Assembly: GCA_019745505.1 (NCBI GenBank)
Contig: JAIETE010000030.1
Location: 1 to 64,000 of the forward strand
Length of the DNA: 64,000 nt
Direction of reading: 5' to 3'
Source: Candidatus Obscuribacterales bacterium
GTDB taxonomy: Bacteria; Cyanobacteriota; Vampirovibrionia; Obscuribacterales; Obscuribacteraceae
Below, in pieces: positions 19,169-55,570 of the stretch. The translations under genes were made by a program, and so were the position numbers. A model generated the notes under the pieces. The model was not told the DNA's origin. It made no database searches and worked only from the letters and a program-made list of their open reading frames with translations. How positions within the stretch are numbered: position 1 is the stretch's first letter; the number at the start of each line of letters is the position of its first letter.

Positions 19169-20899
19169 TCACTGACTATTTTCAATCACACGATTCAACT
19201 CCGAAACAAAGGCATCAGCATCTACGCCGTGCAATCGGCAAGCTCTGGCGATCGAGACCTGGCGGGCGACTGTTCTTCGCAAAACAGGATTATTGATGGC
19301 GCTGAAGCCTCTGGCAAGGAAGATCGGCTCTGTCTCTGGGAACCACTCAAGTACATTGGAAACAATCGAATCGGCTGTTATGCGAGCAGGTCTGGGCCCT
19401 CTCAGTTGCTGATCAGACGGCGCTCCCAGGAGAATTCCGGCAAGATGCACCGCCCATAGTAGCAACCCGATCACTTCCAAACTTCCGCTTATGCCCAAGA
19501 GTGGAAACAACCTCTTGTCCCAGTCTGTACCTGCCTGCAAGACTACACGAAGAAAGCAGCCGGTATTGACCAGGATGAATGGCCAGACGAGCCCAGTCTG
19601 TGTGCGCGAATCGATGCCATTGAGGGTGGGTACGACTTTGGCAGAATACCCCATGATCATCAATGATATAAAGCCAACTGTAATGGCGTGCCTTATTGCC
19701 CCAGCGTATGCGTGACTGGACTGCAAAGCGCCGACTTGCAAATAGAGAGGTGTTGCCAAAAGCATCAAAAGTGAAATGAAAAGCCACGCAAATGCGGCCT
19801 TGATGAATTTTTCCACTCTGTCCTTGTCTGGAAAATTCTGCCATAGCCGAAATGGCAGGCATACCACAAAACAAGCAGCCAAGATACTTGCGTGCGCTCC
19901 TTCTGTCAGCAAGCCTGCAAATGGACTTGATTGCAGTGCAGCCAGGCTAATAATCTCCGCAACCACACCGCCTGTGAGCAACACGAGACCGACCATTGCT
20001 TGCCTCGAGCTGACCGATGGCAGACCAAAAAGCGCCGGCAAGGTTCGTAGTGAAACACCCAAAATAATTGTTATTGCCAAACCGTGAAATTGCATGTCGC
20101 GCAAAGCGGGCAGGCAACAGGCTAAATAGAAAGACGGCATGTTCTTGCCGGCAGCCAGAGTCAGGCAGAGATTGGCAATGCTGGAAATGACAAACCACCC
20201 CAATGCAGTAAAAACATAAGCAATGTACGGCTCAAACTCTTTTCCACTTTCCTTGTAAGTTGTAAACAAGTGTGCCAGGAAAATCGTCACGGCTATCAGT
20301 TCAGCGGCCGCCGCGCAGGTAGCCAGTGCATGCGCCCACTCATGGTCGGCGGCAAACGGTATGGACAGTGACGCTAACAATACTCCGGAGCACATGAGAC
20401 TGAATACGATGGCAGCCAGAAACGGTTTGACCAGCCTGTAATGCCAGAATCGAGGGAATGCCTGGTAAGCAAAACCCATTATGAAAAATCCCATCCAGCC
20501 GTATACCTGAGCCTGGGCATGGGCATTGATCTCCTGCTGGGAGGCTGCATTGAAGCCGTGTCCTATCGAAATTCGCCACAGGAGCATTACTCCCCAGGTC
20601 GCACCAAGAGTGAGAATAGTAAATAATCCCGCTAGAAAGAAAGGACGATAAATTGTGTCGGCAAATCCTGGTCTTTCATCTTCCGTCAGAATGACATTGT
20701 TTGGTTGGAGGACTGCGCTTTGAATTTGCGAGAGAAGAAACGATTCGTCGAGTCCATGTGCACGTGCGAAATATTCAAGGGTCTCGTGCGGGCCTTTTGT
20801 TCCGCCGCATCCCTTTAATCCAAATTTGTCCAGTATTATCCTTGCCTGAGGATACTCATGGAGCAGGTCTGGGATCATTGTCTTTGGTGTAATTTTCAT
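19169..20899 (-). CDS. NnrS-like membrane protein with N- and C-terminal DUF1858-like domains
   Basis: The 576-residue protein has a small N-terminal helical domain (about 1-65, MIPDLLHEYPQARIILDKFGLKGCGG) resembling ScdA_N/DUF1858. About twelve hydrophobic segments follow, with the NnrS pattern EINAHAQAQVYGW and several intramembrane histidines (FHGLA, RHAIT). A second helical domain closes the protein (about 505-576, ITADSIVSNVLEWFPETEPIF). NnrS proteins bind heme and copper and protect cells against NO and its thiol-iron products. The position between NO reductase loci agrees. The double capping with small domains is unusual. Transcribed away from the duplicated qNOR segment. Confidence 0.85.
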   Translation of the reverse strand: MKITPKTMIPDLLHEYPQARIILDKFGLKGCGGTKGPHETLEYFARAHGLDESFLLSQIQSAVLQPNNVILTEDERPGFADTIYRPFFLAGLFTILTLGATWGVMLLWRISIGHGFNAASQQEINAHAQAQVYGWMGFFIMGFAYQAFPRFWHYRLVKPFLAAIVFSLMCSGVLLASLSIPFAADHEWAHALATCAAAAELIAVTIFLAHLFTTYKESGKEFEPYIAYVFTALGWFVISSIANLCLTLAAGKNMPSFYLACCLPALRDMQFHGLAITIILGVSLRTLPALFGLPSVSSRQAMVGLVLLTGGVVAEIISLAALQSSPFAGLLTEGAHASILAACFVVCLPFRLWQNFPDKDRVEKFIKAAFAWLFISLLMLLATPLYLQVGALQSSHAYAGAIRHAITVGFISLMIMGYSAKVVPTLNGIDSRTQTGLVWPFILVNTGCFLRVVLQAGTDWDKRLFPLLGISGSLEVIGLLLWAVHLAGILLGAPSDQQLRGPRPARITADSIVSNVLEWFPETEPIFLARGFSAINNPVLRRTVARQVSIARACRLHGVDADAFVSELNRVIENSQ

Positions 20900-24971: not shown

Positions 24972-27900
24972 ATGGCCTGGATAAAAGATGTTTTTTCTCC
25001 AAAACAGAGGCAGTGGGAAGACTTTTACCGTAACCGCTGGCAATATGACAAAATCGTCCGCAGTACTCATGGTGTAAATTGCACTGGCTCCTGTAGCTGG
25101 AATGTATATGTGAAAAATGGCATTGTCACCTGGGAGCTGCAGGCGCTCGACTATCCGACCATTAGCAAAGATATTCCGCCTCACGAGCCGCGTGGCTGCC
25201 AGCGCGGTATTTCTTGCTCCTGGTATCTCTATTCTCCTCTGCGCGTAAAGTACCCGTACATGCGAGGTGTTCTAGTTGATTTATGGCGCAAAGCCAAAGA
25301 GGACCACAAAGATGATCCCGTTGCTGCCTGGCAATCAATCGTAAACAACAACGAGCGCCGACAAGAATTTCACAATGCGAGAGGAAAGGGTGGTTTCCGT
25401 AGAGTCAAATGGGCGGAAGTAAACGAGCTCATGGCGGCGGCCAATATCTCCACCATAAAGCAGCATGGTCCGGATCGTATCGTTGGATTTTCTCCGATTC
25501 CGGCAATGTCCATGGTCAGCTATGCCTCCGGTGCGCGCTTTCTCCAGCTCATGGGCGGTGTGTGTCTTTCATTCTACGACTGGTATTGCGACTTGCCGCC
25601 AGCTTCGCCGGAGATCTGGGGAGAGCAGACCGATGTTGCCGAGAGTGCCGACTGGTTTCATTCCAAATTTGTTGCCGTAGTAGGGTCGAATGTGCTCATG
25701 ACTCGCACACCGGATGCCCACTTCCTTGTAGAAGGAAGGCACAGAGGCAGTAAGGTCGTAGTATTTTCTCCGGATTTCTCTCAAGCCTCCAAAATCGCTG
25801 ATGAATGGATCCCGATACATCAGGGGCAGGACACTGCTTTCTGGATGGCTGTAACACATGTCATTCTTAAAGAGTTTTACTGCGATAAAAAAACACCCTA
25901 TTTTGTTGATTACGTGAAGAAGTACAGTGACATGCCATTTTTAGTTGCATTGGAGAAGAACACTGACGGCACCTATTCACCGGGAAAATTTCTGCGAGCC
26001 AGTCAAATGTCCGCCACCAAGGATCTAGAGAATAGTCAGTGGAAGATGTTCGTTCTGGACGGAAATACAGGCAAGCTGGTTGTTCCAAAGGGCACAGTGG
26101 GTCACCGATGGCAGAAAAAGAAAGGCGAGTGGAATCTAAAACTGGAAGATGAGGTCACAGGTGCAAAAATTGATCCGTTGATCATGTTGCATTCCGGTGG
26201 TGAGATTCCTCAATCCTCCGTTTCCGTTCGCATCAAAGATTTCTCCAACTTCGACGAGGAGTCCCAGTACCTGCGCGAAGTACCGGTAATTGAAATTGAT
26301 ACGGTCGATGGACCGTTAATGGTAACGACTGCATTCGAACTAATGCTCACTCAATACGGTGTGAAGCGGGGCTGCACCGGCGAATATCCGGAGAACTACG
26401 ATGACAACGAGACTAACTACACTCCAGCATGGCAGGAGAAATTTACCGGAATAAAAGCCGGGGGGGTCGTGAAATTCGCTCGTGAATGGGCGCGTACGGC
26501 AGAATCAAGCAAAGGAAAGTGCAGTGTTATTATTGGCGCTGGTGCCAATCACTGGTATCACAACAATTTGATTTATCGCTCGATCATTACGCCACTTATC
26601 TTGTGCGGGTGCGTCGGAGTCAACGGCGGCGGTCTCAATCACTACGTTGGTCAGGAGAAATTGGCTCCCCAGGCCTCGTGGGCGCCTATTGCTTTCGGAG
26701 GGGACTGGTCTGGTCCGCCGCGTTTGCAAAATGCACCATCCTTTCACTATATACACTCCGACCAGTGGCGATACGATGGAGTGCTGGATGATGTCTGCGC
26801 GGTCAGCGACGAGACTCATTCAATGGCGCGCGGGCACACTGCAGATCGCCAGGCTCAAGCCGTACGCTCCGGCTGGATGCCGTGCTATCCGCAGTTCAAT
26901 GAAAGCAACCTTTCTGTCATAGAAAGAGCTCAGTCGCAAGGAGCGAAAACCGATCAAGAAGTGATCGACGCGGTAGTAAAAAGGCTCAAGGAGCGTTCGC
27001 TCAAATTCTCCATGGAAGATCCGGATAATAGCGAGTCTTATCCTCGCGTTTGGTACATCTGGCGCGGAAATGCCCTTCTGGCTTCGGCAAAGGGGCATGA
27101 ATACTTCCTCAAGCATTACCTGGGCACGCACAACAATTCGATCGCCGAGGAGAAAGCAAAAAATCTTGTCGAGGAAGTGACATGGCACGATAAGGTCGAC
27201 ATGGGCAAGATGGATCTTGTCGTCGATCTCAATTTTCGAATGGACTCATCGGCGCTTTATTCCGACATTGTTCTTCCGGCTGCCACATATTACGAAAAGC
27301 ACGATCTCAACACGACCGACATGCATTCTTTCATCCATCCGCTGCAACCTGCCGTGCCACCATGCTGGGAGGCAAAGAGCGACTGGGACATTTTCAAGGA
27401 GATTGCGCGCTCGACCGCCCGTCTCAGTGAGTGTTATTTACCCGAGCCCGTAAAGGATTTGATTGCATCGCCACTTATGCACGATACGCCGGCTGAGATT
27501 GCCCAACCGCAAGTTTTAGACTGGCTAAAAGACGAATGCGAAGCAATACCGGGTAAGACCATGCCCAATTTGAAAATTGTTGAGCGAGACTATACCAATC
27601 TGTACAACAAATTCATTTCTCTTGGGCCACTAGTCAGAGCAAATGGACTGTCCGTGCATGGCACACACTACGATGTCGACGATCTCTACGATCAGTATAT
27701 GCAAAACAATCCCACCGAGACATGGGGAGGAAAGACTTACCCTTCATTGCGCCAGGATTTGAATGCTTGCGAATTGATCCTTTTGCTTGCCGCTGAGACG
27801 AATGGAGAGCTGGCTCATCGTGCCTATCTCGCAGAGTCTGTAAAAACAGGAATAGATCACACGCATCTTTCCGCAGATTCCAGAGCAATCAGATATTCAT

Positions 27901-28613
27901 TCAATGATTTGAAATCTCAGCCCAGGCGTGTACTGACTACTCCTTTCTGGACTGGCGTGACCAAAGGGGAGCGTACTTATTCCGCATACTGCCAGAATGT
28001 CGAGGAAGAAATCCCTTGGAGAACCCTGACGGGTAGGCAGCACTTATATCTCGACCATGAAACCTACATTGCTTTCGGAGAGAACCTTCCCACTTACAAG
28101 CCGAGACTCTCCAAGCATGCGGCTCGCGATCTCGAGAAGTCAGCGCATGATGGTGGCTCGCTCGTCCTCAATTATCTTACACCTCACGGAAAGTGGCACA
28201 TTCACTCAACCTTTGGCGATACCTTGAGGATGAAGACACTTTCTCGCGGCATCGAGCCAATCTGGCTCAATGACAAGGATGCCGACTTGATTGGAGTCGC
28301 TGATAACGACTGGGTAGAGGCATATAACGATCATGGCGTTGTCTGTACAAGAGCTTGTGTTAGTGCGCGAATACCGAGGGGCATTGCTTTCATCTACCAC
28401 TCGCCTGAGCGTACCGTATCGGTGCCGAAATCAAAGGAACGTGGCATGAGAAGAGCTGGAGGACACAACAGCCTGACGCGCGCGCGCTTGAAACCGCTTT
28501 TTATGATCGGAGGATACGCGCAGTTTACATACGCATTTAATTACTGGGGACCTCAGGGCGTCAACCGCGACACCTTTGTGGTGGTCAAACGCATGGATAA
28601 AGTGGAGTTTTAG
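24972..28613 (+). CDS. narG: Respiratory nitrate reductase, alpha subunit
   Basis: The 1213-residue catalytic subunit reduces nitrate to nitrite at a bis-MGD molybdenum centre. The FS0 cluster site is H33, C37, C41 and C76 ([10 protein letters not shown] and RGC). The molybdenum Asp is in [10 protein letters not shown] (about D203). Long stretches agree with E. coli NarG to the very end ([18 protein letters not shown]). No twin-arginine signal is visible, so it should face the cytoplasm as in classical NarGHI. Size fits the family. It is followed after three bases by narH. Nitrite oxidoreductases share this fold, but the close similarity to NarG and the NarJ and NarI partners favour nitrate reduction. 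Confidence 0.97.
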
Positions 28614-28616
28614 ACG

Positions 28617-30119
28617 ATGGACATACGAGCACAAGTATCGATGGTTTTCCATCTTGATAAATGCATAGGCTGCCATACCTGCAGCGTTGCCTGCAAGAAT
28701 GTTTGGACCGATCGTCCCGGTGCAGAATATATGTGGTGGAACAACGTGGAAACAAAACCCGGTACAGGGTTCCCGACGTTGTGGGAAGATCAAGTTCACT
28801 ATAAAGGCGGTTGGAAAGTCAGCGGCAAGAGTGGAACTCGCAAACTCGAACTGCGAAGCCAGAATAAGCTCGATTCGTTTATTAAGCTTTTCTACAATCC
28901 CAATCAGCCTGGACTTGAGGATTATTATGAGCCTTGGACGTATAAATACGCTGAGCTATTCGACAGCGAGTTAGGCACCGACCAACCCACTGCCATCCCT
29001 GTCTCGCAGATCACAGGTGACCCTGTAGATATAGTTGCCGGGCCGAACTGGGACGATGATCTGTCTGGTTCACCAATCTATGCTGAAAACGATTTGAATC
29101 TTGAAGGTCTGTCTGAGGAAGAGAGAGAGCAGATGTTCGAGATTGAGCGCGTGTCAATGATGTACCTGCCGCGTATTTGCAATCATTGCGCCAATCCGAG
29201 TTGTGTCGCATCCTGTCCTTCCGGTGCACTTTATAAGCGCGGGGAAGATGGAATTGTTTTGATAAATCAGGACGTCTGTAAAGGTTGGAGGGCCTGCATT
29301 TCTGCCTGCCCATACAAGAAAATCTATTACAATTGGAAGACGGGTAAATCAGAGAAGTGCATTCTTTGCTATCCGAAGCTTGAAACAGGCCAGATTCCTA
29401 ATTGCTTTCATTCTTGCGTTGGTCGCATTCGCTATTTGGGGGTCTTGCTGTATGATGCGGATCGCGTTGCTGAGGCCATGAAGGTTCCTGATCATGCTCT
29501 TGTCGAATCGCAGAGAAGCGTGATACTGGATCCTTTTGATGAGACTATCGTTGCGCTTGCGAAGAAAAACGGCATCAGCGATGAATTCATAAAGGCCGCG
29601 CAATTGTCCCCAGTGTACAAGTACGTGATGAAATGGAAAATTGCCCTTCCTCTGCATGTCGAATATCGCACTATGCCGATGCTCTTTTATGTCCCCCCGC
29701 TTTTGCCCGTGATGGGCAAGATGGACAATGGGATTTACGAAAATCCTGTCGATCAGTTTTTTACAAGCCTGGAAAAGTCGCGGCTGCCAATTAAATATCT
29801 TTCTCGTTTGTTCAGCGCCGGTAACGAAGAGCTGATCGAGTCTGTGATGAAAAAATTGATGGCTGTTCGTTACTACAAACGTTCGATCGAGATGTCTGAT
29901 CTCGATATTGTGCTGGTCAGCCGCATGATGCGTGAAGGCTCCACAACTCCCGAGGAGGCTGAGGAGATTTACAGACTGACCGCATTACCCACCATCGACG
30001 AGCGTTTTGTAATACCTGAAATTCAGAGAGAAGAGGCGATTGAGGGCACGTGCAATCCTGAGCTTTGCAAGGGATCATGCGGACTTGGCATCAATCAGCC
30101 CGCGGGGAGGGGACTATGA
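28617..30119 (+). CDS. narH: Respiratory nitrate reductase, beta subunit
   Basis: The 500-residue iron-sulfur subunit carries electrons from the membrane part to NarG. Four cluster motifs are seen: CIGCHTCSVACKNVW at residue 20, CNHCANPSCVASCP near 190, CKGWRACISACP near 220 and CILCYP with NCFHSC near 250. The Trp in CKGWRAC is the NarH mark for the [3Fe-4S] cluster. Length and the sequence around AEYMWWNNVETKPG agree with NarH. Its stop overlaps the narJ start (ATGA). Confidence 0.97.
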   Translation: MDIRAQVSMVFHLDKCIGCHTCSVACKNVWTDRPGAEYMWWNNVETKPGTGFPTLWEDQVHYKGGWKVSGKSGTRKLELRSQNKLDSFIKLFYNPNQPGLEDYYEPWTYKYAELFDSELGTDQPTAIPVSQITGDPVDIVAGPNWDDDLSGSPIYAENDLNLEGLSEEEREQMFEIERVSMMYLPRICNHCANPSCVASCPSGALYKRGEDGIVLINQDVCKGWRACISACPYKKIYYNWKTGKSEKCILCYPKLETGQIPNCFHSCVGRIRYLGVLLYDADRVAEAMKVPDHALVESQRSVILDPFDETIVALAKKNGISDEFIKAAQLSPVYKYVMKWKIALPLHVEYRTMPMLFYVPPLLPVMGKMDNGIYENPVDQFFTSLEKSRLPIKYLSRLFSAGNEELIESVMKKLMAVRYYKRSIEMSDLDIVLVSRMMREGSTTPEEAEEIYRLTALPTIDERFVIPEIQREEAIEGTCNPELCKGSCGLGINQPAGRGL

Positions 30120-30748
30120 CTTGTAGCACAGGCTGCAGATGCAGCTCGGAAGATGACAGATCTTTGATGTCTAACGCACAGGCAATGCCGTCCGAGTGCG
30201 CCGGACGCACTGGCGGGACCATGCGAGGTATTACGCTGGCGCAGCTTGCTTTGATGCTCTGTTATCCGGACGAGCAATTCCATTCGAAGCTAGATGGACT
30301 AACTGATTCAATTGGTTCTGTTTATCCGGAAGCGTTAAAACCGTTCAAAAGGTTCTGCGAGCTGTCAAAGGCGTCTTCGCTTGCAGAACTCGAAGAACTG
30401 TACACTCGTACATTTGATCTGGCGGCGATTGCCAGTCCCTATATAACAGGTTATATATACGGCGACGAGAATTATGATCGCGGAACACTCATGGCGTGCT
30501 TGAGTGAAAATTATTCTCGCCTCGGTTTCGAGCTGGAAGGGGAGCTTCCCGATCATTTGGCGCTTTTATTACGCTTCTCCAGCTGGTTGGACGAGGAAAC
30601 TCTCGATGAGCTTATAGAATACTGTTTGCGAGAGCCTGTTGCGCAAATGTGCGAGCAGCTCAGAAATTCCGACAATATGTACTTCTTTCTATTGAGCGCG
30701 ATCAGCGCGGTTTTGAACTCTGCGCAGAGAGGAGATTCCCACAAATGA
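30116..30748 (+). CDS. narJ: Nitrate reductase chaperone
   Basis: The 210-residue helical protein is the cytoplasmic chaperone that inserts the molybdenum cofactor and holds NarGH before membrane docking. The family signature ELPDHLALLLRFSSWL is seen near residue 145, after a conserved FDL-x-SPYITGYIYGDENYDRG stretch. The start at 30116 overlaps the narH stop by three bases. The N-terminus is unusual, with a cysteine cluster (MTCSTGCRCSS) of unknown meaning. The stop overlaps the next gene by ATGA, so the chain is coupled. Confidence 0.9.
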   Translation: MTCSTGCRCSSEDDRSLMSNAQAMPSECAGRTGGTMRGITLAQLALMLCYPDEQFHSKLDGLTDSIGSVYPEALKPFKRFCELSKASSLAELEELYTRTFDLAAIASPYITGYIYGDENYDRGTLMACLSENYSRLGFELEGELPDHLALLLRFSSWLDEETLDELIEYCLREPVAQMCEQLRNSDNMYFFLLSAISAVLNSAQRGDSHK

Positions 30749-32061
30749 TTGACTCTCTTCTGTTCATTGCTCTGCCGTATCTAGCTATTTTTGTTGGTGT
30801 GTTTGGTTCCATTTACCGAATTCGTACTGCTCCAATGACTTACTCGTCGTTGTCATCGCAGTTCCTTGAGAGTAAAGGATTGATGTGGGGATCCTTACCT
30901 TGGCATATTGGTATCACTGTTATTCTGCTTGCGCATTTCATCGCGTTTCTAGCACCCGGATTTTGGCAGAGTATGATCTCTCATCAGCTTGCACTGGCTG
31001 TCGTCGAGTCAGCCGGTTTGGGCCTCTCTTTCTTGTGCTTGATCGGATTGATAGTTCTAGCCGTAAGGCGTATGACATCGGCGAGAATTCAAGCCGTAAC
31101 TTCAGTCATGGATCTGGTTGTGATTGTCCTGCTGCTCTTACAAGTCGGTCTTGGTGTGGCAACGGCGGTTCACTGCAAATGGGGCAGCTCGTGGTGCTCG
31201 GGAACTACTACTCCTTACTTGTGGAGCATTATCACATTCCAGCCGGACATGTCTTACATAGTCGATCTGCCCCTCTTAGCGAAGGCGCATATCGTCGGAG
31301 CCTGGCTCTTTATATTCGTGATACCCTTTTCCCGGCTGATACATATGTTCGCCGTGCCTGTCGAGTATTTATTCCGCCCGCCGCAGAATGTTGTCTGGAC
31401 CAATGCAAATCACTGTAATGTAGCCAGTCAGAGTTTTGTCAAGGAGGAAGCCAGGCGCCATTTTTTACGAGCTTTTTGCGGTATTGCATTTGGTGGCTTT
31501 TTGCTTTCTATCGGCACATTCAGGAATGTCTTTTCATTTTTCTTCGGACCCCGCCTCGGGCGCAAAGAAGAAACAGAGCTGATGGAATTGAGACTCTCTA
31601 GACTGGAGTCTACGGTGGGACAGAGAAAGTTGGAATTGGAAAGACAGGCATCCAATTTTATTTTGGTTGGCAAGCTAGCCGATTTGAGCCCAGATGACGG
31701 GAAGTATTTTATCGACTACAAGATGCAGCCGGCGATTGCATTTAGAGGAAGGGATGACTTGCCGCTTTTGATTAGTGCCAAGTGTACTCATTTGGGTTGT
31801 ACCGTAGGTAATAAGGTTGACGATAAAGGAAGAATACTTTGTCCCTGCCATGTTTCTTTTTTCGATATCAACACCGGTGAGCCGAACGCGGAGGCGCCTG
31901 CTAAAGCTCCGCTGCCGCACCTAGGATGGGTGATTATGGATGAGCATGGGAAAGTGCTGGTCAGTCGAGATGCCTCTGGTAAGACAGAGGGGGTGTTGCA
32001 GCCTCAGTCAAGGGCTTCAGCGCAGGTGTTCATAAGCAAGGGCCAGGAGGCTAAGGCATGA
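30745..32061 (+). CDS. narI: NarI-Rieske fusion protein
   Basis: The 438-residue protein joins two modules. Residues 1 to about 225 are the gamma subunit NarI: five hydrophobic helices with the heme b histidines in WHIGITVILLAH and in KAHIVGAW through RLIHMF. Residues about 250-438 are a Rieske protein: a RRHFLRAF-type anchor helix, a linker with charged coiled part, then the [2Fe-2S] motifs CTHLGC (347-352) and CPCH (366-369). NarI is normally separate. Here quinol oxidation by NarI heme b and a high-potential Rieske centre are on one chain. The reading frame is continuous with no sign of error, and the gene overlaps both neighbours. Confidence 0.92.
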   Translation: MIDSLLFIALPYLAIFVGVFGSIYRIRTAPMTYSSLSSQFLESKGLMWGSLPWHIGITVILLAHFIAFLAPGFWQSMISHQLALAVVESAGLGLSFLCLIGLIVLAVRRMTSARIQAVTSVMDLVVIVLLLLQVGLGVATAVHCKWGSSWCSGTTTPYLWSIITFQPDMSYIVDLPLLAKAHIVGAWLFIFVIPFSRLIHMFAVPVEYLFRPPQNVVWTNANHCNVASQSFVKEEARRHFLRAFCGIAFGGFLLSIGTFRNVFSFFFGPRLGRKEETELMELRLSRLESTVGQRKLELERQASNFILVGKLADLSPDDGKYFIDYKMQPAIAFRGRDDLPLLISAKCTHLGCTVGNKVDDKGRILCPCHVSFFDINTGEPNAEAPAKAPLPHLGWVIMDEHGKVLVSRDASGKTEGVLQPQSRASAQVFISKGQEAKA

Positions 32062-42759: not shown

Positions 42760-44208
42760 CTATTTTGTCAGAATCGGTTTTGTGTGAGGATGCGCTGCCT
42801 TATCCAAGATAAAGTTCAATACGTCTTGAGCGCTGTAATTGTCTCGATTCTGTCCTACAATTCTCTTGATCTCGCCAATGTATTTTCCTGCAGTTACCAG
42901 CGGCGGCTCCAGATATCCATCCTTTTGCACTTGGGATAAGCCCACAGTAGACATTAGTCCATTGCAAAGGCATTTCTTTCCACAAGTTTCTTCTATTTTC
43001 CCGCCCTTCTGAACAAAATTATTAACAGGCTCCCCTGAGCATCTGAATCCAACCGAGCCATCCTCTTTCTTGTATGCTTGACGCAGATAGCCAAGATCGC
43101 AGATCCTTTGCCTGTTCAGATAAATCAATTCATCAGATAATGAGGATTCTACCGGCACTACTTTGAATGGATAGCCTGATGCGGAAGCCGCCGGATCCGT
43201 GAATACTTCTGGTTTTTCCTTTTGTATCCATTCGATTACTTCCCTCTTAATCGAAGCCTCAATTCCTGATTCGTTGCAGAATGCAAACAGGCTGCCGAGC
43301 TGAATGCCTTTTGCACCAGACTCAAGTGCTTTCCTCAGACCCTCCGGGCTTCCGTATCCGCCTGCCAGCCAAAAAGGCAGACCGATCTTTTGAAAGCTAT
43401 CCGTGTCAATTTCGTCTTTGGGACCGTAAATCGGCTCTCCATGCTCGTCGACCCTTACGCCTCCGCGGGGCGGGGCATTGTGCCCCCCCGCGGAGTGATG
43501 TTCGACTACAAAACCGTCCACTTTGCCGCTTGATTTCTTTGCCAGAGAAAGAGCCAGTACTGATGAAGACACGATCGCTAAGAACTTCGGACGTTTCAAA
43601 TCTGTTTGTTTGATCAGATACTTTCTCGGATCAAATTCGACGGTATAGCAGTCTTCCGCGCTGCTGCCTTCGACATCGATTTTTAGGCTGGTAGGTTCTT
43701 GTCTGCTCAGGCGATCGAGTATTCCAGGTATCGCACGAGGAATACCCGCTCCCATGAGGACGAAGTCTACTCCAGCAAGCATTGCTCCGAAAATGGAGGG
43801 CAATGTTGGTAGGTCGATCTTTGTAAGGTAGTTGATACCAACGAGTCCTTCGTGGCCTTCCTTTGCTAAGAAGACTTCCACAAAATTGGCTAATACTGTC
43901 AGATCGATCAGAAGTCCAGCTGACTTCATGCTGTGCATGGACACTGACTTGTAGGGCGTATCGGGTTTTCTGCCCCCCTCAATGAAATACTCCCTCAGGA
44001 TGCGCTGTGCTATTTCTGGTACTGGAAACTTGCCGATTGCCCTGCGAATGGTGCCATCTGCATCGCCATCCTGTAAGCGCCGCGCCAGTACGGTGTCCAG
44101 CATGGTGCCTGAAACGACGCCCATTTGCCCTGCTTGCGCAACTGCTCTGGCTAGGCGGTAATTGGAAACCGCGACACCCATGCCGCCTTGAATGATAGTG
44201 GGATACAT
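42760..44208 (-). CDS. Nitronate monooxygenase/NPD-family flavoprotein
   Basis: The 482-residue protein has the TIM-barrel start MYPTIIQGGMGVAVS, a VLMGAGIP turn, the catalytic-type His stretch EHHSAGGHN near 245 and the FMN-phosphate loop LAGGYGSPEGLRKAL near 290, followed by GAKGIQLGS. It thus belongs to the 2-nitropropane dioxygenase/FabK superfamily. The last 110 residues form an extra region with cysteines (CSGEP, CGKKCLC), not present in short family members. The ATG at 44208 gives the canonical start; the GTG at 44265 would add 19 residues without family support. Substrate unknown. Confidence 0.85.
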   Translation of the reverse strand: MYPTIIQGGMGVAVSNYRLARAVAQAGQMGVVSGTMLDTVLARRLQDGDADGTIRRAIGKFPVPEIAQRILREYFIEGGRKPDTPYKSVSMHSMKSAGLLIDLTVLANFVEVFLAKEGHEGLVGINYLTKIDLPTLPSIFGAMLAGVDFVLMGAGIPRAIPGILDRLSRQEPTSLKIDVEGSSAEDCYTVEFDPRKYLIKQTDLKRPKFLAIVSSSVLALSLAKKSSGKVDGFVVEHHSAGGHNAPPRGGVRVDEHGEPIYGPKDEIDTDSFQKIGLPFWLAGGYGSPEGLRKALESGAKGIQLGSLFAFCNESGIEASIKREVIEWIQKEKPEVFTDPAASASGYPFKVVPVESSLSDELIYLNRQRICDLGYLRQAYKKEDGSVGFRCSGEPVNNFVQKGGKIEETCGKKCLCNGLMSTVGLSQVQKDGYLEPPLVTAGKYIGEIKRIVGQNRDNYSAQDVLNFILDKAAHPHTKPILTK

Positions 44209-44495
44209 GGCTAGTCTAAACTCCCCTGAGAAAACTACATCCTCTCCGACATCGTGGGGCTGCACTTATCCCACTTAACTTTCATTGAGTTATCGAATCC
44301 TAACAAATGGACTGGTTTTTCACTATGGTTACAAAAAGGTGCCCACCTTGTGTAAGGCGGCATTCCTTGCCCTGGGTGAGGAATTGAGCTTTGTATCGTA
44401 GAAGTTAACAGCTGCTGTTTTGAGTCTGAAAATGATTGACAGCGTTGCATGAGCATGCGAAGTTAGTGTCGTTTCGCTCTACGAAGGATATAGAA

Positions 44496-44913: not shown

Positions 44914-46416
<1,503 letters not shown>

Positions 46417-46500: not shown

Positions 46501-47949
46501 TTGAATACTTTCAATTTCTGCGAGTCAAACTGCCGTGATAGTTTGAAAGTTGCCATCGTTGGTGGAGGCGTGTCCGGGCTGTCCAGTGCATATTTCTTAC
46601 TTCGAGAAGCGAAGACTCGTGGCGTTCGAATCGAGCCGACTATTTTTGAAGCGAGAAGTGATTTAGGAGGTGTTGTAAAGACCGTCCGCCATGGCGGGCT
46701 GGTTCTTGACATGGGCCCTGAATGTTTTGTCTCCACAAAACCTGCGGTTGGGGAAATTGCTCGCGAATTGCACTTTGATTCAAGAATAATTACTCAGGCT
46801 GAGCGCCGGACATTTATTGCGGAGGCCTCTGCACTTCGTGAAGTTCCGGAAGGACTGCTTTCGATGAATCCAAATATTCCGGCACTCCTCATGAGTCGTC
46901 TTTTCTCCTCTCGTGCAAAGGTCCGCTTGGCTGCCGAGCCTCTGATCAGGCGTGGAAACAACTCCGGCGACGAATCTGTCGCTGATTTCGTCAGCCGGAG
47001 ATTCGGCATCGAGTTCTTGGAGAGACTCGCCGAGCCACTAATTGGTGGATTGTACGGAGCTGACCCATCTATGCTGAGCGCTAAGGCTTCAATGCCTCAC
47101 CTTGTAGGATTGGAAATCGCCCACGGCAGTGTTTTCGTGGGAATGGCCAAGGACCGATGCCGTCAGCTAATCGAGCACGATAGACAGAGGACGCTTGCAA
47201 AGTCTAATGCCGGTACTATGTCTACTTTTGACGGCGGCATGGGTGTGTTGGTTGATGAGTTGAAAGCTAGCCTCGGTACCAGGGTAAGAATCATCAATTC
47301 TCAGGTCGTCTTTTTGTGCCGGTATGGAGGCGCAAACAAGTGGCTGATTGGGAGCCGCGATCGGAAAAAAGAGTGGTTTGATGCCATCATGATTGCATTA
47401 CCAGGACCGGCTGCAGCACCCCTTCTCTTTTCGGTTGATGAAAGTCTTTCATGTGCTCTTTCTTCGATAAAGTATTCTTCTCCGGCGGTTGTGAGCATGG
47501 TCTTCGAACAGGCAGCCCTGGCAGAGCCTTTGAAGGGATCGGGTTTTCTTGTCCCCAAAAGCATAAGACGGAGCGTACGAGCATGCACCTTCAGCAGCAA
47601 TAAATTCAGGAGAGAAATGACAAGGGAGCACGTTGTCTTGCGAGCTTCTTGCAATGTTGCTGATGCGAAGAGCAGTGATGAGGAGATCAAATTGGCCGCT
47701 GTCGATGAGCTTAGGGATTATCTGAAAATACTCGAAGAGCCTATCTTTTCAATTGTGGCCAGGCATGAGAATGCAATCCCGCAATTTGCACCAGGATATG
47801 AAAATCTTCTTGCGTTGATCGAGAGACGCAAGGCTGCTTTGCCTGGTTTCGCGCTCGTCGGTAATGCTTTCGGCGGCATGGGCGTTTCTGATTGTGTGAT
47901 GAGAGCCCGTCTGGAGAGTGAACGACTTCTCGAGCAAATTGAGTTCTAG
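46501..47949 (+). CDS. Protoporphyrinogen/coproporphyrinogen oxidase, HemY/CgoX type
   Basis: The 482-residue flavoprotein opens with the FAD-binding VAIVGGGVSGLSSAYFLL, followed by FEARSDLGGVVKTVRHGGLVLDMGPECF, EPLIGGLYGADP near 180 and a closing VGNAFGGMGVSDCV, all typical of HemY/CgoX. It oxidises a porphyrinogen to porphyrin in heme synthesis. The frame opens with TTG at 46501; another TTG 42 bases on is possible and neither has a clear ribosome site, so the start is uncertain. It sits between two PLP lyase genes, 22 bases before the second. Whether the three act together is unknown. Confidence 0.9.
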   Translation: MNTFNFCESNCRDSLKVAIVGGGVSGLSSAYFLLREAKTRGVRIEPTIFEARSDLGGVVKTVRHGGLVLDMGPECFVSTKPAVGEIARELHFDSRIITQAERRTFIAEASALREVPEGLLSMNPNIPALLMSRLFSSRAKVRLAAEPLIRRGNNSGDESVADFVSRRFGIEFLERLAEPLIGGLYGADPSMLSAKASMPHLVGLEIAHGSVFVGMAKDRCRQLIEHDRQRTLAKSNAGTMSTFDGGMGVLVDELKASLGTRVRIINSQVVFLCRYGGANKWLIGSRDRKKEWFDAIMIALPGPAAAPLLFSVDESLSCALSSIKYSSPAVVSMVFEQAALAEPLKGSGFLVPKSIRRSVRACTFSSNKFRREMTREHVVLRASCNVADAKSSDEEIKLAAVDELRDYLKILEEPIFSIVARHENAIPQFAPGYENLLALIERRKAALPGFALVGNAFGGMGVSDCVMRARLESERLLEQIEF

Positions 47950-47971
47950 TTCGCCAGGAAAAGGTGCGTTG

Positions 47972-49420
47972 ATGAAAACTATAATTGAGCCTTTCAGAAT
48001 CAAAGCGGTGGAGCCGATTCGATTGACATCGAGGGCGGAGCGAAACGCGCTTTTGGAGAAGTCCGGATATAATTTGTTTCAGATACACGCGCAGGATGTC
48101 ACCATTGACTTTTTGACCGACAGCGGGACGGCGGCGCTGTCTAGCGAACAGTGGTCTGCTCTTATGCGCGCCGACGAATCGTATGCTGGAGCCGCCAGCT
48201 TTTTCAGATTTGAGCGAGCCGTGCAATCGATTTTTGGTTTCCGATATACGTTGCCCGTGCACCAGGGGCGTGCCGCTGAGCGGTTGCTCTTCAAGCAAAT
48301 GGTCTCTGCGGATCACATAGTGCCTTCGAATACTCATTTTGATACTACTCGTGCCAACATAGAATCACTGGGAGCGGTAGCGCTCGATTTGCCCTGCGCA
48401 GAGTGGCGAACTTGCGATGCCGGCGCGGCGTTCTCCGGGAACATAGATCTAGTCCAATTGGAGAATCTCCTCAATAGTACTGAATATGGTGTAATACCGC
48501 TGGTTCTGCTAACTGTGACTAACAACGCGTGTGCAGGTCAGCCCGTGTCGATGCAGAATGTCAGAGAGACCAGCCGCTTGCTCAAAAGGCACCAGATTCC
48601 GCTGTTTCTCGATGCGGCACGCTTCGCCGAGAACGCTTACTTAATTCATGAGAGAGACAGTGAGTTTTCCAGTCGTTCGATTGCTGGGATCGCTGGTGAA
48701 ATGTTCGCCTATGCGGACGGCTGTTTGATGTCTTGCAAGAAAGACGGCATCGCAAACATTGGCGGATTCATTGGTGTCAACGAACTCGAACTGGCGGAGA
48801 AGCTGAAAGAGGAGATGATCGTTACAGAAGGCTTTCCCACTTACGGTGGTCTTTCGGGACGGGAATTGGAGACAATTGCGGTCGGACTCAATGAGGCGTT
48901 ACAGGAAGACTACCTTCGTTATCGCGAGGCGGCAGCATTGTATCTTCACAGTGGACTGCAAGAGATCGGAGTCCCGGTAGTTTCTCCTTCTTCTCTGCAC
49001 GCTGTCTACGTAGACGCCGCTGAGATGTTTCCACATGTTTCGGCTGTTGAACTGCCAGGGCAGGCTCTTGCTTGCGAACTATTTAGAGAGGCCGGAATTC
49101 GTACCTGTGAAATTGGCACCGCGATGTTTGGAAGAGTAGATGAGAAAACGGGTGCGACGATTTGCGCATCAAGGGAGTTAGTGCGGTTAGCTCTTCCTCG
49201 CCGAGTTTATACGCAAAGTCATTACGAGTACGTAATAGAGGCGTTCGAAAATATCTTGAAGCGCAGGTCTCACATTCGTGGGCTTAAATTCAAAACCCAG
49301 TCCAAAAGACTCAGGCATTTCACGGCCGTCTACGAGCCCCTAGATACTGATGTTTCGTCGCTGTTGAATAGCCCGGTTGTCCAAAAGTTCTGTCCTGATG
49401 AGCCTGCTTGCGAAATTTAA
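47972..49420 (+). CDS. tnaA: Tryptophanase-type beta-eliminating lyase
   Basis: The 482-residue PLP enzyme shares the lyase frame with its neighbour but follows tryptophanase in key blocks: [38 protein letters not shown], the PLP lysine in LMSCKKDG and AGIRTCEIGTAMFGR, where E. coli TnaA has an AGIRAVEIGS block. It should convert tryptophan to indole, pyruvate and ammonia, with some uncertainty on substrate because several loops differ. The ATG at 47972 follows AGGAAAAGG. Indole could serve as signal. It is convergent with the NOD-like gene. Confidence 0.85.
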   Translation: MKTIIEPFRIKAVEPIRLTSRAERNALLEKSGYNLFQIHAQDVTIDFLTDSGTAALSSEQWSALMRADESYAGAASFFRFERAVQSIFGFRYTLPVHQGRAAERLLFKQMVSADHIVPSNTHFDTTRANIESLGAVALDLPCAEWRTCDAGAAFSGNIDLVQLENLLNSTEYGVIPLVLLTVTNNACAGQPVSMQNVRETSRLLKRHQIPLFLDAARFAENAYLIHERDSEFSSRSIAGIAGEMFAYADGCLMSCKKDGIANIGGFIGVNELELAEKLKEEMIVTEGFPTYGGLSGRELETIAVGLNEALQEDYLRYREAAALYLHSGLQEIGVPVVSPSSLHAVYVDAAEMFPHVSAVELPGQALACELFREAGIRTCEIGTAMFGRVDEKTGATICASRELVRLALPRRVYTQSHYEYVIEAFENILKRRSHIRGLKFKTQSKRLRHFTAVYEPLDTDVSSLLNSPVVQKFCPDEPACEI

Positions 49421-49440: not shown

Positions 49441-51807
49441 CTAACTGGTCAAGGAAGTGTCTGCTTCCGCTTTTTCCAAAATGGGTTCCGGCGATATCAA
49501 GGCTTCTGATTTTGCCGGCGCTTCTTTTGGTTTTGTCGTGTACAACTGGCTGAGATTGTTCAGAACAAACATACATAATGGAACTACTCCACCAATGACA
49601 AAGATCGCACCGCCGACAATGCGCATCCATGTGAGGGTTTGAAAGGCGCTTGATTGCAAGAATGCCTGCGATCTGGCATACCAGAGTCCATCGGTAAGGA
49701 CGGCGTTCAGTTGTATCACCCCAGCCGGAAAAAGGTCGAGCAGTACCATAAGCATCAGACCTGCGTTCAAAGACCAGAATGCAACAGTAATTAACCTGCT
49801 GTTCCATGAATGTGAGGGAATTAAAAAGCGCAAACAGAAAAGCATAGCGGATAAGGCTAGATTTCCATAGACTCCCATTAGAGCTGCATGCCCGTGATTT
49901 ACTGTCAGATATGTTCCATGCTCATAGTAGTTGACTATGGGAAGGTTAATGATGAACCCGAACACACCGGCTCCCATGAAGTTCCAGAAGTTCACGGACA
50001 GCAAGAAGAGATATGAGTCTTCGTGAGCGAATTGTTCACGGGCACCAAGTCTCTTGCGCTCGTTTTGAGGAGCTTTCGCCAACCGGAATGATTCAAGCGT
50101 CAAAATTATCAGAGGAACCACTTGCAGTGTTGAGAAAACGCTGCCCAGAGCAAGGGTTTCCACTGGTTTCGCGTTCCAGTAGAAATTATGCGAGATTCCG
50201 ATGATACCTGAGCCCAAGAAGAGTAGTGTCGACAAATAGACCGCTCTTCCTGCGCTCTGAATCGTCACCAGTCCCATCAAATACATAAAACAAGCGATGA
50301 GTGCGGTCGTGAAGACTTCAAAAAACGCTTCCACCCACATATGAATGACGCACCATCTCCAGAAATCGGCGATAACGAAATTCGTCTTGGGGCCAGCCAC
50401 AAAGCCTGAGATGAACAAGCCGAGCACGCAGAGAACTGAATAGAAGAGCCAGTTGGGCAAGGCTAGGGGATGATCATTGCGCAGAAATCCTTTAATGCCG
50501 CGATAGATCAGGAACGCCCATACTCCAATAGCGAGGAAGAGAAGCCCCTGCCACAACTTTCCAAGTTCTACGAATTCCCAGCCTTGATTGCCAAGGAGCC
50601 ACCAGTCCTTGAGCATACCCAGTGGCCCCATCAGAACACCGACCGAACTGCCAATGACAAGAATGACTAGCATCAAGAAAAGCAGATTGACCAGATTTGC
50701 CTGCCCCTTCGGCTCGGCTTTAGTGAGCATGGGAATTATGAATAAAGATGCGCCCATCCAGCAGGTTGATATCCACAAAAGTGAAAGCTGCAAGTGCCAG
50801 CTGCGTGTTATCGGCAAAGGCAGAAACTTTGCGATGTCCACTCCCGCGAAGGTCGTGAACTGAACAAAGTCATGAATTGTCAGGACTCCGGCCAGGACCT
50901 GAAGCAGAAAAAGTAAAATTGCTGCAGCGAAGAATTTGTAGGTGGCTTTCTGAGTTGGCGAGGGGGTGAAGCTAGAGAGAAAGTCCAGTGTCATAAGTCT
51001 TCTCGCCGGATCAAGCAGCCTTGATTGTGAACCGTTTGAACCGACTCCTATAGATTCCGCCGGACTTTTGAGTGAAACATCTAGACGCCCACGCAGATAG
51101 AGAACGCCTCCCAGTCCTAGCATTAGACCCATGCACCCGGCCACACTCCAGAAAGTTATTGGCCAGCTGGGAACATTGCCGGCTAATGGATCATACGGCC
51201 AGTTGTGCGTATAGCTGTATTTATGCCCGGGGCGCACAGCGGAACATACCCATGCGCCCCAGAAGAAGAATGAAGTCAGATTTTGAAGTTGCTTCTCGTC
51301 ACTAATATATGAGACCGGATGTATTGTTTCTTTTCCAGTGCCTTGAAAGAAATCGTGGTAGTGTTTCACGAGCGTATAGTACGCTATTTTCTGACCCTCG
51401 CTGATCGAAACAGTGTTTCCAGCCGCATCGTATGCGTTGTGCCTGATTTCTCTTTTAACCTTGTTCTCGATGGCTGCCAGCCTGTCTACATCCAGTTTTG
51501 CCGTTTGATCTCCTCCGACATATGACTCAATCATTGCAGTTGTGATCAAGTGAAGTGCATCAGCTGTAAAGTCCGGACCACGTCCGGCACCATCGCCGAA
51601 CATACTGCCATAATTCATGAGGGCGTACTTTTGAAATACAAGCTGTCCTTCTAAAATCGAATTTTGCGAAACGACAACGCGGCCATCCTTGTCAACGAAG
51701 TCCGGTATCGGTGGTGCGTCCTGGTATGTGCGTATGCCCATGAAAACGACACCAGCCAATCCGCTAATTAGAACGATTGAGATAGGCAGCCACCATTTGC
51801 GAAACAT
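49441..51807 (-). CDS. NOR-family heme-copper protein with NO dismutase-like substitutions
   Basis: The 788-residue protein has the qNOR layout: N-terminal helix, large outer domain (about 30-215), then about thirteen helices. In Geobacillus qNOR numbering it keeps FeB ligands H508, E512 (HMWVE) and H559, but position 560 is Asn (SHNFYW instead of MHHLYF) and E581 is Gln (TLQVVP). In the quinol site H328 and F336 stay, while E332 is Gln and D746 is Gly. The heme histidines (NHGH) remain. Asn at 560 and loss of quinol-site residues are reported for putative NO dismutases. It may therefore dismutate NO to N2 and O2, or be a divergent NOR. The ATG at 51807 has GGAGG; a longer frame does not. Confidence 0.88.
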   Translation of the reverse strand: MFRKWWLPISIVLISGLAGVVFMGIRTYQDAPPIPDFVDKDGRVVVSQNSILEGQLVFQKYALMNYGSMFGDGAGRGPDFTADALHLITTAMIESYVGGDQTAKLDVDRLAAIENKVKREIRHNAYDAAGNTVSISEGQKIAYYTLVKHYHDFFQGTGKETIHPVSYISDEKQLQNLTSFFFWGAWVCSAVRPGHKYSYTHNWPYDPLAGNVPSWPITFWSVAGCMGLMLGLGGVLYLRGRLDVSLKSPAESIGVGSNGSQSRLLDPARRLMTLDFLSSFTPSPTQKATYKFFAAAILLFLLQVLAGVLTIHDFVQFTTFAGVDIAKFLPLPITRSWHLQLSLLWISTCWMGASLFIIPMLTKAEPKGQANLVNLLFLMLVILVIGSSVGVLMGPLGMLKDWWLLGNQGWEFVELGKLWQGLLFLAIGVWAFLIYRGIKGFLRNDHPLALPNWLFYSVLCVLGLFISGFVAGPKTNFVIADFWRWCVIHMWVEAFFEVFTTALIACFMYLMGLVTIQSAGRAVYLSTLLFLGSGIIGISHNFYWNAKPVETLALGSVFSTLQVVPLIILTLESFRLAKAPQNERKRLGAREQFAHEDSYLFLLSVNFWNFMGAGVFGFIINLPIVNYYEHGTYLTVNHGHAALMGVYGNLALSAMLFCLRFLIPSHSWNSRLITVAFWSLNAGLMLMVLLDLFPAGVIQLNAVLTDGLWYARSQAFLQSSAFQTLTWMRIVGGAIFVIGGVVPLCMFVLNNLSQLYTTKPKEAPAKSEALISPEPILEKAEADTSLTS

Positions 51808-52025: not shown

Positions 52026-53102
52026 ATGCAGACTTACTATGGATCCGATGGACAGGCGCTTGTACGCGCACAGCAGAACCCGTGGCTGATTGGCAGAAAG
52101 GAGGATATCTCGTTTTTCTTTTTGCCAGTCATAGTGGCTGTGGCTGTTTATTATTTAGCTCAAACTCAGCTGGTAGCTAATTCAATGTTTTTGACTATGA
52201 TTGCGGCTTATGGATTTGGTCTGGGACCACTTCATCAAGGCGCTACCTGGTTCACATATTTTGATAAAGACAATTTGGCGTATTACAAAGGTAATCAGAT
52301 AAACAGATTTCGTTTTTTCATCTTGCCGCCGGTACTAATTTTGACTGGGATTGTCGCTACGATAGCTTGCCCTCAGTTCTTGTTCGGTGCTTTGACTGTT
52401 TGCCACGTCGACCATCTAGTGCAGCAGAGCGTGCGCCTGTCGCGCTTGTATAGAAAGGAGGATAAGTTCGCGACCACAAACTTCGAGCTTGAAGGAATTT
52501 CGCAGTACTCAATTGCATTTGCCTTCACTCTTGTTGGCTTTTACCGCTTCGATTTTTTAGGATTTGCTTCTATGCCTGGAGCGCTCTTTCTTACCATTGC
52601 AATTTGCGTAATAGCAATGCTTAGTGCGCTTGCGTACTTGGGCGGGATCTATCGGCAGCATATGGATGGATTGCCCTTGAACCTCCCTGCGTTGTTGTTT
52701 TGGATTCTATCCGTCTTGGCATGGGTTCCGGGAGCGTTGGTCTCAAATTACTTTGTGGCGTTCTTGATTCCGCTTACAATTCATTGGTTTCAGTTTCTCG
52801 GGATGAATGCCATTCTGGTTGAGCGAAAAGCCGCCTGTACAACTTGTTCTGCGACGGACTCGAGAAGGAGCTTGTTTCGTCCGGCTGGTATTTTGTTTGG
52901 TGTTTGTTTCATTTATTTGTCGATGTTTGTGTTCATTGACTTTCTCTGTCACTCGCCCGTCTCTGTTTATCTAAGGGGGATTTGTTTGGGCGTACTCGCC
53001 GGTCTGTCAATGTGTCACTACATGCTGGATACATTCATCTGGCGCTTTCAAGATGAGTACCAGCAGCAGCACATCTTGCCGTACATAATCAAAAGCGATT
53101 GA
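52026..53102 (+). CDS. Unknown polytopic membrane protein, histidine-containing
   Basis: The 358-residue protein has about nine to ten hydrophobic segments. Conserved-looking histidines lie in or near membrane parts: LHQGATWF near 72, CHVDHLVQQSVRL near 125, IHWFQFLG near 250 and MCHYMLDTFIWRF near 337. Such spaced histidines could bind metal or heme. I do not recognise the family, though an HYxLDxxIW ending is known from uncharacterised bacterial membrane proteins. It shares a divergent promoter region with the NOD-like gene, which makes a common function possible. Confidence 0.7.
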   Translation: MQTYYGSDGQALVRAQQNPWLIGRKEDISFFFLPVIVAVAVYYLAQTQLVANSMFLTMIAAYGFGLGPLHQGATWFTYFDKDNLAYYKGNQINRFRFFILPPVLILTGIVATIACPQFLFGALTVCHVDHLVQQSVRLSRLYRKEDKFATTNFELEGISQYSIAFAFTLVGFYRFDFLGFASMPGALFLTIAICVIAMLSALAYLGGIYRQHMDGLPLNLPALLFWILSVLAWVPGALVSNYFVAFLIPLTIHWFQFLGMNAILVERKAACTTCSATDSRRSLFRPAGILFGVCFIYLSMFVFIDFLCHSPVSVYLRGICLGVLAGLSMCHYMLDTFIWRFQDEYQQQHILPYIIKSD

Positions 53103-53415: not shown

Positions 53416-53844
53416 TCATTTAAGACTTTCGAGAAGTGGTATCGATTTCGTCGGTGTGGAAAGAATATCTTGTATACTTGTTTCCGCGAAACTTCGCTGC
53501 AAGATAGCTGTTGCGTCGTCTATTTTTCTATGAAGAGCGCAAAGTACCGTTCCATGTGACTCGATCCCAAGCGGACAATGCTCAATCCGTTGAATCGGGT
53601 CGACAGCATTTACCACATCCAGCGTGCAGATTTCGACTGGCTCATTTACCAAACAAAATCCTCCGCCACAGCCTCTTTGAGAGCGCACGATATTAGCCTT
53701 TACGAGAAGCTGCATAACTTTAGAAAGATACGCAGGGGGCACCCTTGTCGCTATTGCAATTTGCTTCGTTGTGAATGCCGAATTCGGATTCATAGCCAGA
53801 TAAACGACAGCTCTGAGAGCGTACTCTGCTGTTTGAGAGATCAT
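53416..53844 (-). CDS. Rrf2-family transcriptional regulator, second copy
   Basis: The 142-residue protein is closely related to the Rrf2 protein at 3316-3786: MISQTAEYALRAVVYLA start, winged helix with RGCGGGF wing, and the same HCPLGIES through LCALHRKIDDA block with two cysteines in the cluster region. A further Cys sits in the wing (RGCGG) and one follows (FCL), so the possible ligand set differs from the first copy. It precedes no gene in its own direction, but lies between the NOD-like gene and the rubredoxin-RIC and globin genes, which are likely targets. Confidence 0.88.
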   Translation of the reverse strand: MISQTAEYALRAVVYLAMNPNSAFTTKQIAIATRVPPAYLSKVMQLLVKANIVRSQRGCGGGFCLVNEPVEICTLDVVNAVDPIQRIEHCPLGIESHGTVLCALHRKIDDATAILQRSFAETSIQDILSTPTKSIPLLESLK

Positions 53845-53923: not shown

Positions 53924-54907
53924 CTAGCTTATGGCTATACTCGATTTTGCTTCATTTGATGCAGAGGAAATTTTCAAGCAGCGCGGAAAAAGAATGTTGT
54001 TCTCCTTATGGACATGCAGATGCATCTCAGACTCAAAATTTGCCAATGATTTGAGAAGCACTTTGAAGGTGGTGCATGCATCCGGTGGAGGATTGTAATC
54101 ATTGGTCAAATTTCGAAGTGTGCATAGGGCTTCACCTGCATCCTCGTGTTCCATAGTCATAACCGCTATTGGGTGTTCGATACCTGCGCCGCAACCAAAC
54201 ATTGCGCTCTTGTTTGCTTCCATCGCGGCTATGCCGGGGAAAAGTATTAATTCTTCCTTCTGCATATGCAACTCTAACTGTTCCTTTAGGCGAGCAAAAA
54301 TTTCCGCCACTTTAATCATTTCGGGATGACTGTTCCCATGGACGCGCGCTACCTTATCGGTTAGAGCAAGAATTCTTTTCAGTTCAAGCCGCAGAGGATC
54401 GTGATAGCAAGCCAAAATATGATCGATCAATTCCTTGAGGCTTGTGCGCGTCCAGTCAGGCTCGAGCACGGGTTCAAGTTTCTCGGAAACTATATTTAGT
54501 TTTTGCATTATGGTCTCTACATCCAGGTGCCTTTTCTGACAGGCGTCTGCCAGGCTGATCTTGCCGCCACAGCAGTAATCGATGCCATACTGCTCAAAAA
54601 ATTGAGTGAACGCCGGATTCATGATCACTAATTCTCCGACAGGAGATTCTTTTGTGATTTTTGACTTCGAATCTATGGGAACGTTTAGTTTGATCTTCTT
54701 GTGAGGTTCACAAACCTGCTCCAAGCCAGGCAAACGCACACATGAGCACGGTTGAAACATCTCTTTTTTTGAATTGCAATCAGGACAATTCCATTCTTCC
54801 GGGAGATCCTCGAAACTTTGCAATGGAGCAATATGTTGCCTCGGCTCTCCCACTGCTTCGTCGTAAATGTAGTTGCACACCGTGCATATGTTTTTTGCAT
54901 TAGACAT
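53924..54907 (-). CDS. Rubredoxin-RIC (ScdA/YtfE) fusion, Fe-S repair di-iron protein
   Basis: The 327-residue protein joins three parts. A rubredoxin domain comes first (about 1-60, CTVCNYIYD and CPDC for one iron). Next is a ScdA N-terminal domain (about 85-145, FFEQYGIDYCCGGK). Last comes a hemerythrin-like four-helix domain (about 165-310) with di-iron ligands in IDHILACYHD, LELHMQKEE, TMEHEDAGE and LHVHKENNILFP. RIC proteins release iron to repair Fe-S clusters hurt by NO. A fused rubredoxin would supply electrons. The start at 54907 has a GGCGGAG site. It is followed downstream by the Rrf2 gene on the same strand. Confidence 0.92.
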   Translation of the reverse strand: MSNAKNICTVCNYIYDEAVGEPRQHIAPLQSFEDLPEEWNCPDCNSKKEMFQPCSCVRLPGLEQVCEPHKKIKLNVPIDSKSKITKESPVGELVIMNPAFTQFFEQYGIDYCCGGKISLADACQKRHLDVETIMQKLNIVSEKLEPVLEPDWTRTSLKELIDHILACYHDPLRLELKRILALTDKVARVHGNSHPEMIKVAEIFARLKEQLELHMQKEELILFPGIAAMEANKSAMFGCGAGIEHPIAVMTMEHEDAGEALCTLRNLTNDYNPPPDACTTFKVLLKSLANFESEMHLHVHKENNILFPRCLKISSASNEAKSSIAIS

Positions 54908-55045
54908 AACAAGCTCCGCCCGTTTATGATATTGGACCATTGTGTCCAGATTAGCTTTTTCAGTCCTCGTTTCTATCGTTCCCAGGTATGATTTTGCCTG
55001 TCCTTCGATTGGACTAACCGCGAAGCTCGCTACGTGTCGACTTCG

Positions 55046-55570
55046 TTACGCTTCTCCGGACTGCCCTTCGGCAACCCATGGACGTGGATCGTCTTTCTTG
55101 AATCCATTAGGCTCGAAGCCTGCCTTGGTTAGTTCTTCTTGAAATTTATTCGGATTCTCTGCCGCTTCTATCATAATTTTGGAGACTGTCTTTAGAGCAT
55201 CTTCCCATGTGCTTTTCATTTCTTCAGTCCACTCGCCCTCTTTGCTTAGATGTTCGGCAAGCACTGACACCAGATTTTCTGATACTGCAGCATAGTGGGC
55301 ACTTTCGGTTTTGTATTTGAGATGACGAATACCCATTGCATGCAAGAAGGGTACGAGGATGTCTGGCTTTTCCACTGCTCCAACAATGGATGCCACCGAG
55401 GCAAGCAGTTTCTTGTGCTGTTCCTCTGGTGGGGTTGAGAATAGTGGACGGACGGCTGGATACTTCTCGAAAAGCCTGGCGTAAAACCTCATTCCAAGAG
55501 CTGTAGCACCACCGTTTTCTATTTTGGCGCGTTCAAAAGTCTCTCTAAGTAATTTTGCATTTAACGACAT
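55046..55570 (-). CDS. Single-domain globin
   Basis: The 174-residue protein has the globin fold as in the heme domain of flavohemoglobin and Vitreoscilla hemoglobin: FYARLFEKYPAVRPLFS near 30-46 (Tyr and Phe of the heme pocket), a LHAMGIRHLKYKTESAHYAAVSENL stretch with the proximal His near 85, and WEDALKTVSKIMIEAA near 128. No reductase domain follows. Such globins react with NO and O2 to give nitrate or store O2. It lies between RIC and a sensor kinase, with two palindromes in front. Start context is consistent with MSLNAKLLRETF. Confidence 0.92.
   Translation of the reverse strand: MSLNAKLLRETFERAKIENGGATALGMRFYARLFEKYPAVRPLFSTPPEEQHKKLLASVASIVGAVEKPDILVPFLHAMGIRHLKYKTESAHYAAVSENLVSVLAEHLSKEGEWTEEMKSTWEDALKTVSKIMIEAAENPNKFQEELTKAGFEPNGFKKDDPRPWVAEGQSGEA

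Follow-up and report, generated by a model that had tools for sequence, protein, structure and literature searches.

A nitric oxide dismutase-family gene in a metagenome-assembled genome of Obscuribacterales

Introduction

Nitric oxide dismutase (NOD) is among the few proposed light-free biological routes to O2. The 64,000-nucleotide stretch of DNA analysed here (the window) belongs to a metagenome-assembled genome (MAG) of Obscuribacterales, which is 84% complete and 5% contaminated. Besides two canonical qNORs, the window encodes a third homologue, in which a preliminary description had noticed NOD-like changes of the active site and quinol site. This locus raises the question of whether the third homologue is a NOD, an intermediate form, or a member of another NOR class, and whether it may evolve O2.

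Active site and quinol site of the third homologue

The gene, here called nod, occupies positions 49441..51807 on the minus strand. The longest open reading frame covers 49441-51843 and encodes 800 residues from the ATG at 51843, and an internal ATG at 51807 gives a protein of 788 residues. A GGAGG ribosome-binding site is located directly 5' of ATG 51807, and the N-termini of homologues coincide with this codon. Therefore, 49441-51807 is likely the gene, in agreement with the coordinates proposed previously. The reading frame contains no stop or frameshift, and the heme c motif CXXCH is absent from its translation. A scan for promoters and terminators gave scores no better than those of shuffled sequences. 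Comparison of nod with orthologues from two independent MAGs (78% and 73% identity) yielded a saturated pS of 0.81–0.83 and a low pN of 0.15–0.18, indicating that the gene is under purifying selection.

The protein was aligned by HMMER to Geobacillus qNOR (3AYF), whose numbering, checked by counting, is used throughout. The third FeB ligand carries the substitution H560N (AAT codon, 50185..50187), and the second catalytic-site change is E581Q (CAA codon, 50122..50124). The quinol site is altered by E332Q (CAG codon, 50860..50862) and D746G (GGT codon, 49609..49611). All four codons are on the minus strand and, counted from ATG 51843, correspond to Asn553, Gln574, Gln328, and Gly745, respectively. 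Residues H508, E512, E516, H559, H328, and F336 are retained, as are the remaining invariant histidines of the core (H355, H651, and H653). The alignment bears out the four substitutions of the preliminary description and its list of retained residues (H508, E512, H559, H328, F336, and the heme histidines). The two qNORs of the window (3995..6295 and 21352..23652, both on the plus strand) are intact, as had been proposed, and keep all canonical residues.

The hallmarks of NODs are the replacement of the third FeB histidine by Asn and of one Glu near the centre by Gln (PMC3413370). The window protein agrees with this definition by Ettwig et al. 2012 in having N560 and Q581, and its quinol site is degraded through E332Q and D746G, though H328 and F336 remain. 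The four residues that identify a qNOR (H560, E581, E332, and D746) are all altered.

Membership in the NOD family

An alignment of six Obscuribacterales NODs was used to scan GTDB-based contigs, which confirmed 209 relatives; the best 80 of the 209 were kept. The NODs compared, 83 in total, come from Bacteroidota, Pseudomonadota, Planctomycetota, and other phyla. Asn560, Gln581, Glu512, His508, and His559 are each present in 83/83 sequences, a count that describes the clade rather than a random sample, as the set was picked by similarity. Position 746 is Gly, Ala, or Ser. In contrast, the 25 qNORs contain H560, E581, E512, H508, H559, and D746 without exception. Eight alignment columns discriminate NODs from qNORs at a level of at least 95–97%, and the window protein agrees with the NODs at each of them. 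Of the quinol-site residues, H328 occurs in 65 and F336 in 48 of the 83 NODs.

The retained E512 had led the preliminary description to consider an intermediate form. This doubt was not upheld: E512 is kept in every one of the NODs, so its retention is normal for the family and does not mark a qNOR–NOD intermediate, which is ruled out; the glutamate that is lost is E581. It had also been considered that H560N might be unique to this assembly, but N560 was found in independent MAGs as well as throughout the NOD set. The occurrence of the same substitutions in independent MAGs, together with purifying selection, rules out a sequencing error or one-off mutation.

The NOD clade, which includes the window protein, is separated from all tested qNORs with support of 100 in one tree and 100/100 in another, so that the protein does not fall inside canonical qNORs, the placement that would have spoken against the NOD-type reading. 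The clade is anchored by Algoriphagus and Scalindua, whose genes have been termed nod (PMC10264387 and PMC10359470, respectively), and by the genus Cecembia, for which a nod has been published (PMC13386854). The trees were calculated without the Methylomirabilis and HdN1 proteins, which were not among the best 80 of the 209 loci, and without bNOR, nNOR, and eNOR reference sequences. Two NODs of MAGs labelled Armatimonadota (L101) and Bdellovibrionota (L099) nest in the Bacteroidota NOD clade, which reflects either transfer or misbinning.

An AlphaFold2 prediction from 40 sequences reached a mean pLDDT of 82 and a pTM of 0.85, and its best PDB match was 3AYF (TM 0.85). The window protein is thus predicted to adopt the qNOR fold, which says nothing on its chemistry. 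Based on the residues, the trees, and the predicted fold, the window gene is almost certainly a member of the NOD family, and the NOD-type reading of the preliminary description is supported by the substitutions, the phylogeny, and the diagnostic columns.

The window protein shares H560N, the replacement of a Glu close to the catalytic centre by Gln (E581Q), and an altered quinol site with the NODs of Methylomirabilis (DAMO_2434/2437), HdN1, Algoriphagus, Cecembia, and Scalindua. The heme and remaining FeB histidines, the qNOR fold with a cytochrome c-like domain devoid of heme c, and a nearby NsrR-type regulator are also common to them. It differs in its Obscuribacterales host and in belonging to a separate lineage, which is approximately 49–62% identical to the NODs of other phyla. 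In the NC10 and aquifer clusters, T328/R332 are frequent (PMC10286720), whereas the window NOD keeps H328/F336. Furthermore, no pMMO was recognised near the window nod, which is linked to genes for HemY and tyrosine phenol-lyase. With the qNOR of known structure (3AYF), the protein has in common the fold, the architecture, approximately 36–46% identity, H508/E512/H559, and the heme histidines, but not H560, E581, E332, or D746.

Genomic neighbourhood of nod

Genes associated with the response to NO lie in the vicinity of nod. A Rrf2-family (NsrR/IscR-like) regulator is encoded at 53416..53844, a rubredoxin-ScdA/RIC iron-sulfur repair protein at 53924..54940, and a single-domain globin at 55046..55570, all on the minus strand; an NnrS-like protein with two DUF1858 domains is encoded further away (19169..20899, minus strand). 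Of 77 nod loci, 26 have a Rrf2 gene at a distance of no more than 1.5 kb; these 26 are mostly from Bacteroidota and do not represent as many independent events. RIC homologues were found at 21 of the examined nod loci. The recurrence of Rrf2, which agrees with published nsrR–nod links, and that of RIC support a putative NO-responsive role. The divergent neighbour of nod is an unannotated membrane protein with conserved histidines (52026..53102, plus strand), located beside nod in G002 and G007 too, with 64% identity among the three genomes. Matches to it were found in 30 of the 53 genomes of the order, most of the others being diverged paralogues (30–39%). An avidin-family protein is encoded at 58395-58877.

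On the other side of nod are genes for a tyrosine phenol-lyase (44926..46416, plus strand), a tryptophanase/TPL-family paralogue (47918..49420, plus strand), and an NMO/FabK-like flavoprotein (42760..44265, minus strand). All three recur in nod islands, and the lyase and its paralogue do so in several Obscuribacterales genera. Between the lyase and its paralogue lies the second genome copy of a HemY-type protoporphyrinogen oxidase of the O2-dependent type (46501..47949, plus strand). HemY is encoded near nod in the window genome, G007, and G015. Two HemY copies above the cut-off are present in four of seven NOD genomes, whereas each of four relatives without NOD has a single copy. The extra copies of the window genome, G002 (contig C395), and G007 (contig C244) form their own clade and are linked to nod, whereas that of G029 has a separate origin and shares a contig with nod, at a distance of about 40 kb. 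The HemY–nod link was found by looking in a small sample and is a lead rather than a result.

The preliminary description had called the organism a denitrifier, which holds in part. The window encodes a narGHJI nitrate reductase (24972..32061, plus strand), the narI of which contains a Rieske domain, the two qNORs, and a NarK-family transporter. G015 has a homologous nar cluster on its nod contig, close to nod, and the order of the narI–Rieske fusion and the following cytochrome b6-like gene (30649-33161) matches that in G015. A third qNOR-type match and a cbb3-type oxidase are encoded elsewhere in the window genome. However, a search for NosZ in this MAG (84% complete) found none, and G025 is the only one of the seven NOD genomes that encodes it. 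NirS gave only weak partial matches, and NirK none above the cut-off, in this MAG and the six other NOD genomes; the best NirK match per genome scored 61–82 bits, compared to a cut-off of 296. The NirK candidate of the window genome was rejected: it is multicopper-oxidase-like, scores better against copper_res_A, and does not have the type-1 Cu Cys at the NirK position.

Proposed reaction of the NOD

Based on the substitutions and the neighbourhood of nod, a mechanism can be proposed. NO, either derived from nitrite that the Nar of this contig produces or supplied by denitrifiers in the surroundings, would probably induce nod, as the Rrf2/NsrR-like regulator, RIC, globin, and NnrS in its vicinity suggest. 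NO would enter the heme b3/FeB site, where Asn serves as one of the FeB ligands and Gln replaces E581. As the quinol site is degraded, quinol probably cannot feed the site with electrons for the reduction of NO. Two NO molecules would instead be rearranged into N2 and O2, so that NO could be removed without electron cost. The released O2 may be used locally by the cbb3 oxidase, by the globin, and by enzymes that require O2, for example the linked HemY. Overall, the protein is probably a sink for NO that is induced by NO, works without quinol, and releases O2.

For O2 evolution by the window protein itself, we lean only slightly in favour. The quinol site still has H328 and F336, although H328 is also found in most NODs. 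That no NirS or NirK source of NO was found in the seven NOD genomes and that three qNORs are able to remove NO as N2O also count against this role. No NOD has been isolated or demonstrated to form O2, and the results of physiological studies conflict (PMC13386854). Alternatively, the protein may be a quinol-independent NO detoxifier or binder that forms N2O or another product with a different electron donor and does not evolve O2. The NO-stress genes Rrf2, RIC, globin, and NnrS, the first and second of which recur near nod elsewhere, would suit such a function. In addition, the family matches in the window include no recognisable dedicated hydrocarbon monooxygenase, and purified NOD is absent from the literature. 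Nevertheless, the changes of the FeB ligand, E581, and the quinol site hold across phyla with few or no exceptions, pointing to a definite new chemistry, and the physiology of Methylomirabilis favours O2 formation (PMC3413370). We regard a NOD-family protein that does not release O2 as possible but rather unlikely.

Distribution and host lineage

Obscuribacterales, which do not photosynthesise but are related to the cyanobacteria, are placed in the Cyanobacteriota/Melainabacteria group (NCBI). Including the window genome, nod is carried by 7 of 53 Obscuribacterales genomes and 5 of 25 genera. The six further copies, five of full length and one fragment, are 60–78% identical to the window protein. 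Judged by bit score, no NOD was present in the 385 other genomes of an even sample of 386 Cyanobacteriota. Nine other matches were checked; H560, E581, and D746 are present in the eight that aligned cleanly, while the alignment of the ninth was poor. Carriage by plasmids or viruses was rejected. The plasmid sequences among the listed matches reach only about 35% identity and, where annotated, are NOR or cbb3-type oxidases. One IMG/VR match is a NOR-like fragment (39%) on a 231-kb contig called viral (L192), and the alignment does not cover its catalytic site.

Together, the six full-length NODs of Obscuribacterales make up a single lineage (support of 97 in one tree and 92/87 in another), the sister of which is a sequence from an Acidobacteriota MAG (92/93). 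This sister, together with the incompleteness and contamination of the window MAG, could indicate that nod was misbinned from another bacterium of the metagenome. However, independent MAGs of the same genus, to which G002 belongs, contain orthologues of 73–78% identity with common neighbours, nod of G029 (about 10 contigs, 97% complete) is located within a 223-kb contig, and the Obscuribacterales sequences cluster together, which makes misbinning very unlikely. That the gene is a canonical qNOR or another NOR class (bNOR, nNOR, or eNOR) with chance substitutions or sequencing errors is suggested by the retained E512, H328, and F336, but is extremely improbable given the identical substitutions in independent MAGs, the NOD state of all diagnostic columns, E512 in all NODs, and the placement in the NOD clade, albeit in trees that do not contain the three other classes.

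Implications

Judged from its sequence, the window gene would add a new member and a new host lineage to the already known NOD family. Our literature search, in which two key surveys (Murali 2024 PNAS and Ruff 2024) were not covered, found no publication pairing NOD with Obscuribacter or Melainabacteria and no report of NOD in Obscuribacterales; priority cannot be claimed. We tentatively propose, with more doubt than confidence, that Obscuribacterales make O2 from NO in the dark and use it in O2-requiring reactions, including those of HemY and cbb3 respiration. The repeated HemY link offers a testable use of O2 other than hydrocarbon oxidation. The presence of a separate NOD lineage in the group that is sister to oxygenic cyanobacteria enlarges the circle of potential dark O2 producers and is relevant to how such organisms use O2 in anoxic settings. 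If the proposed reaction is true, the phylum of oxygenic photosynthesis would also hold a second, unrelated O2-evolving enzyme.
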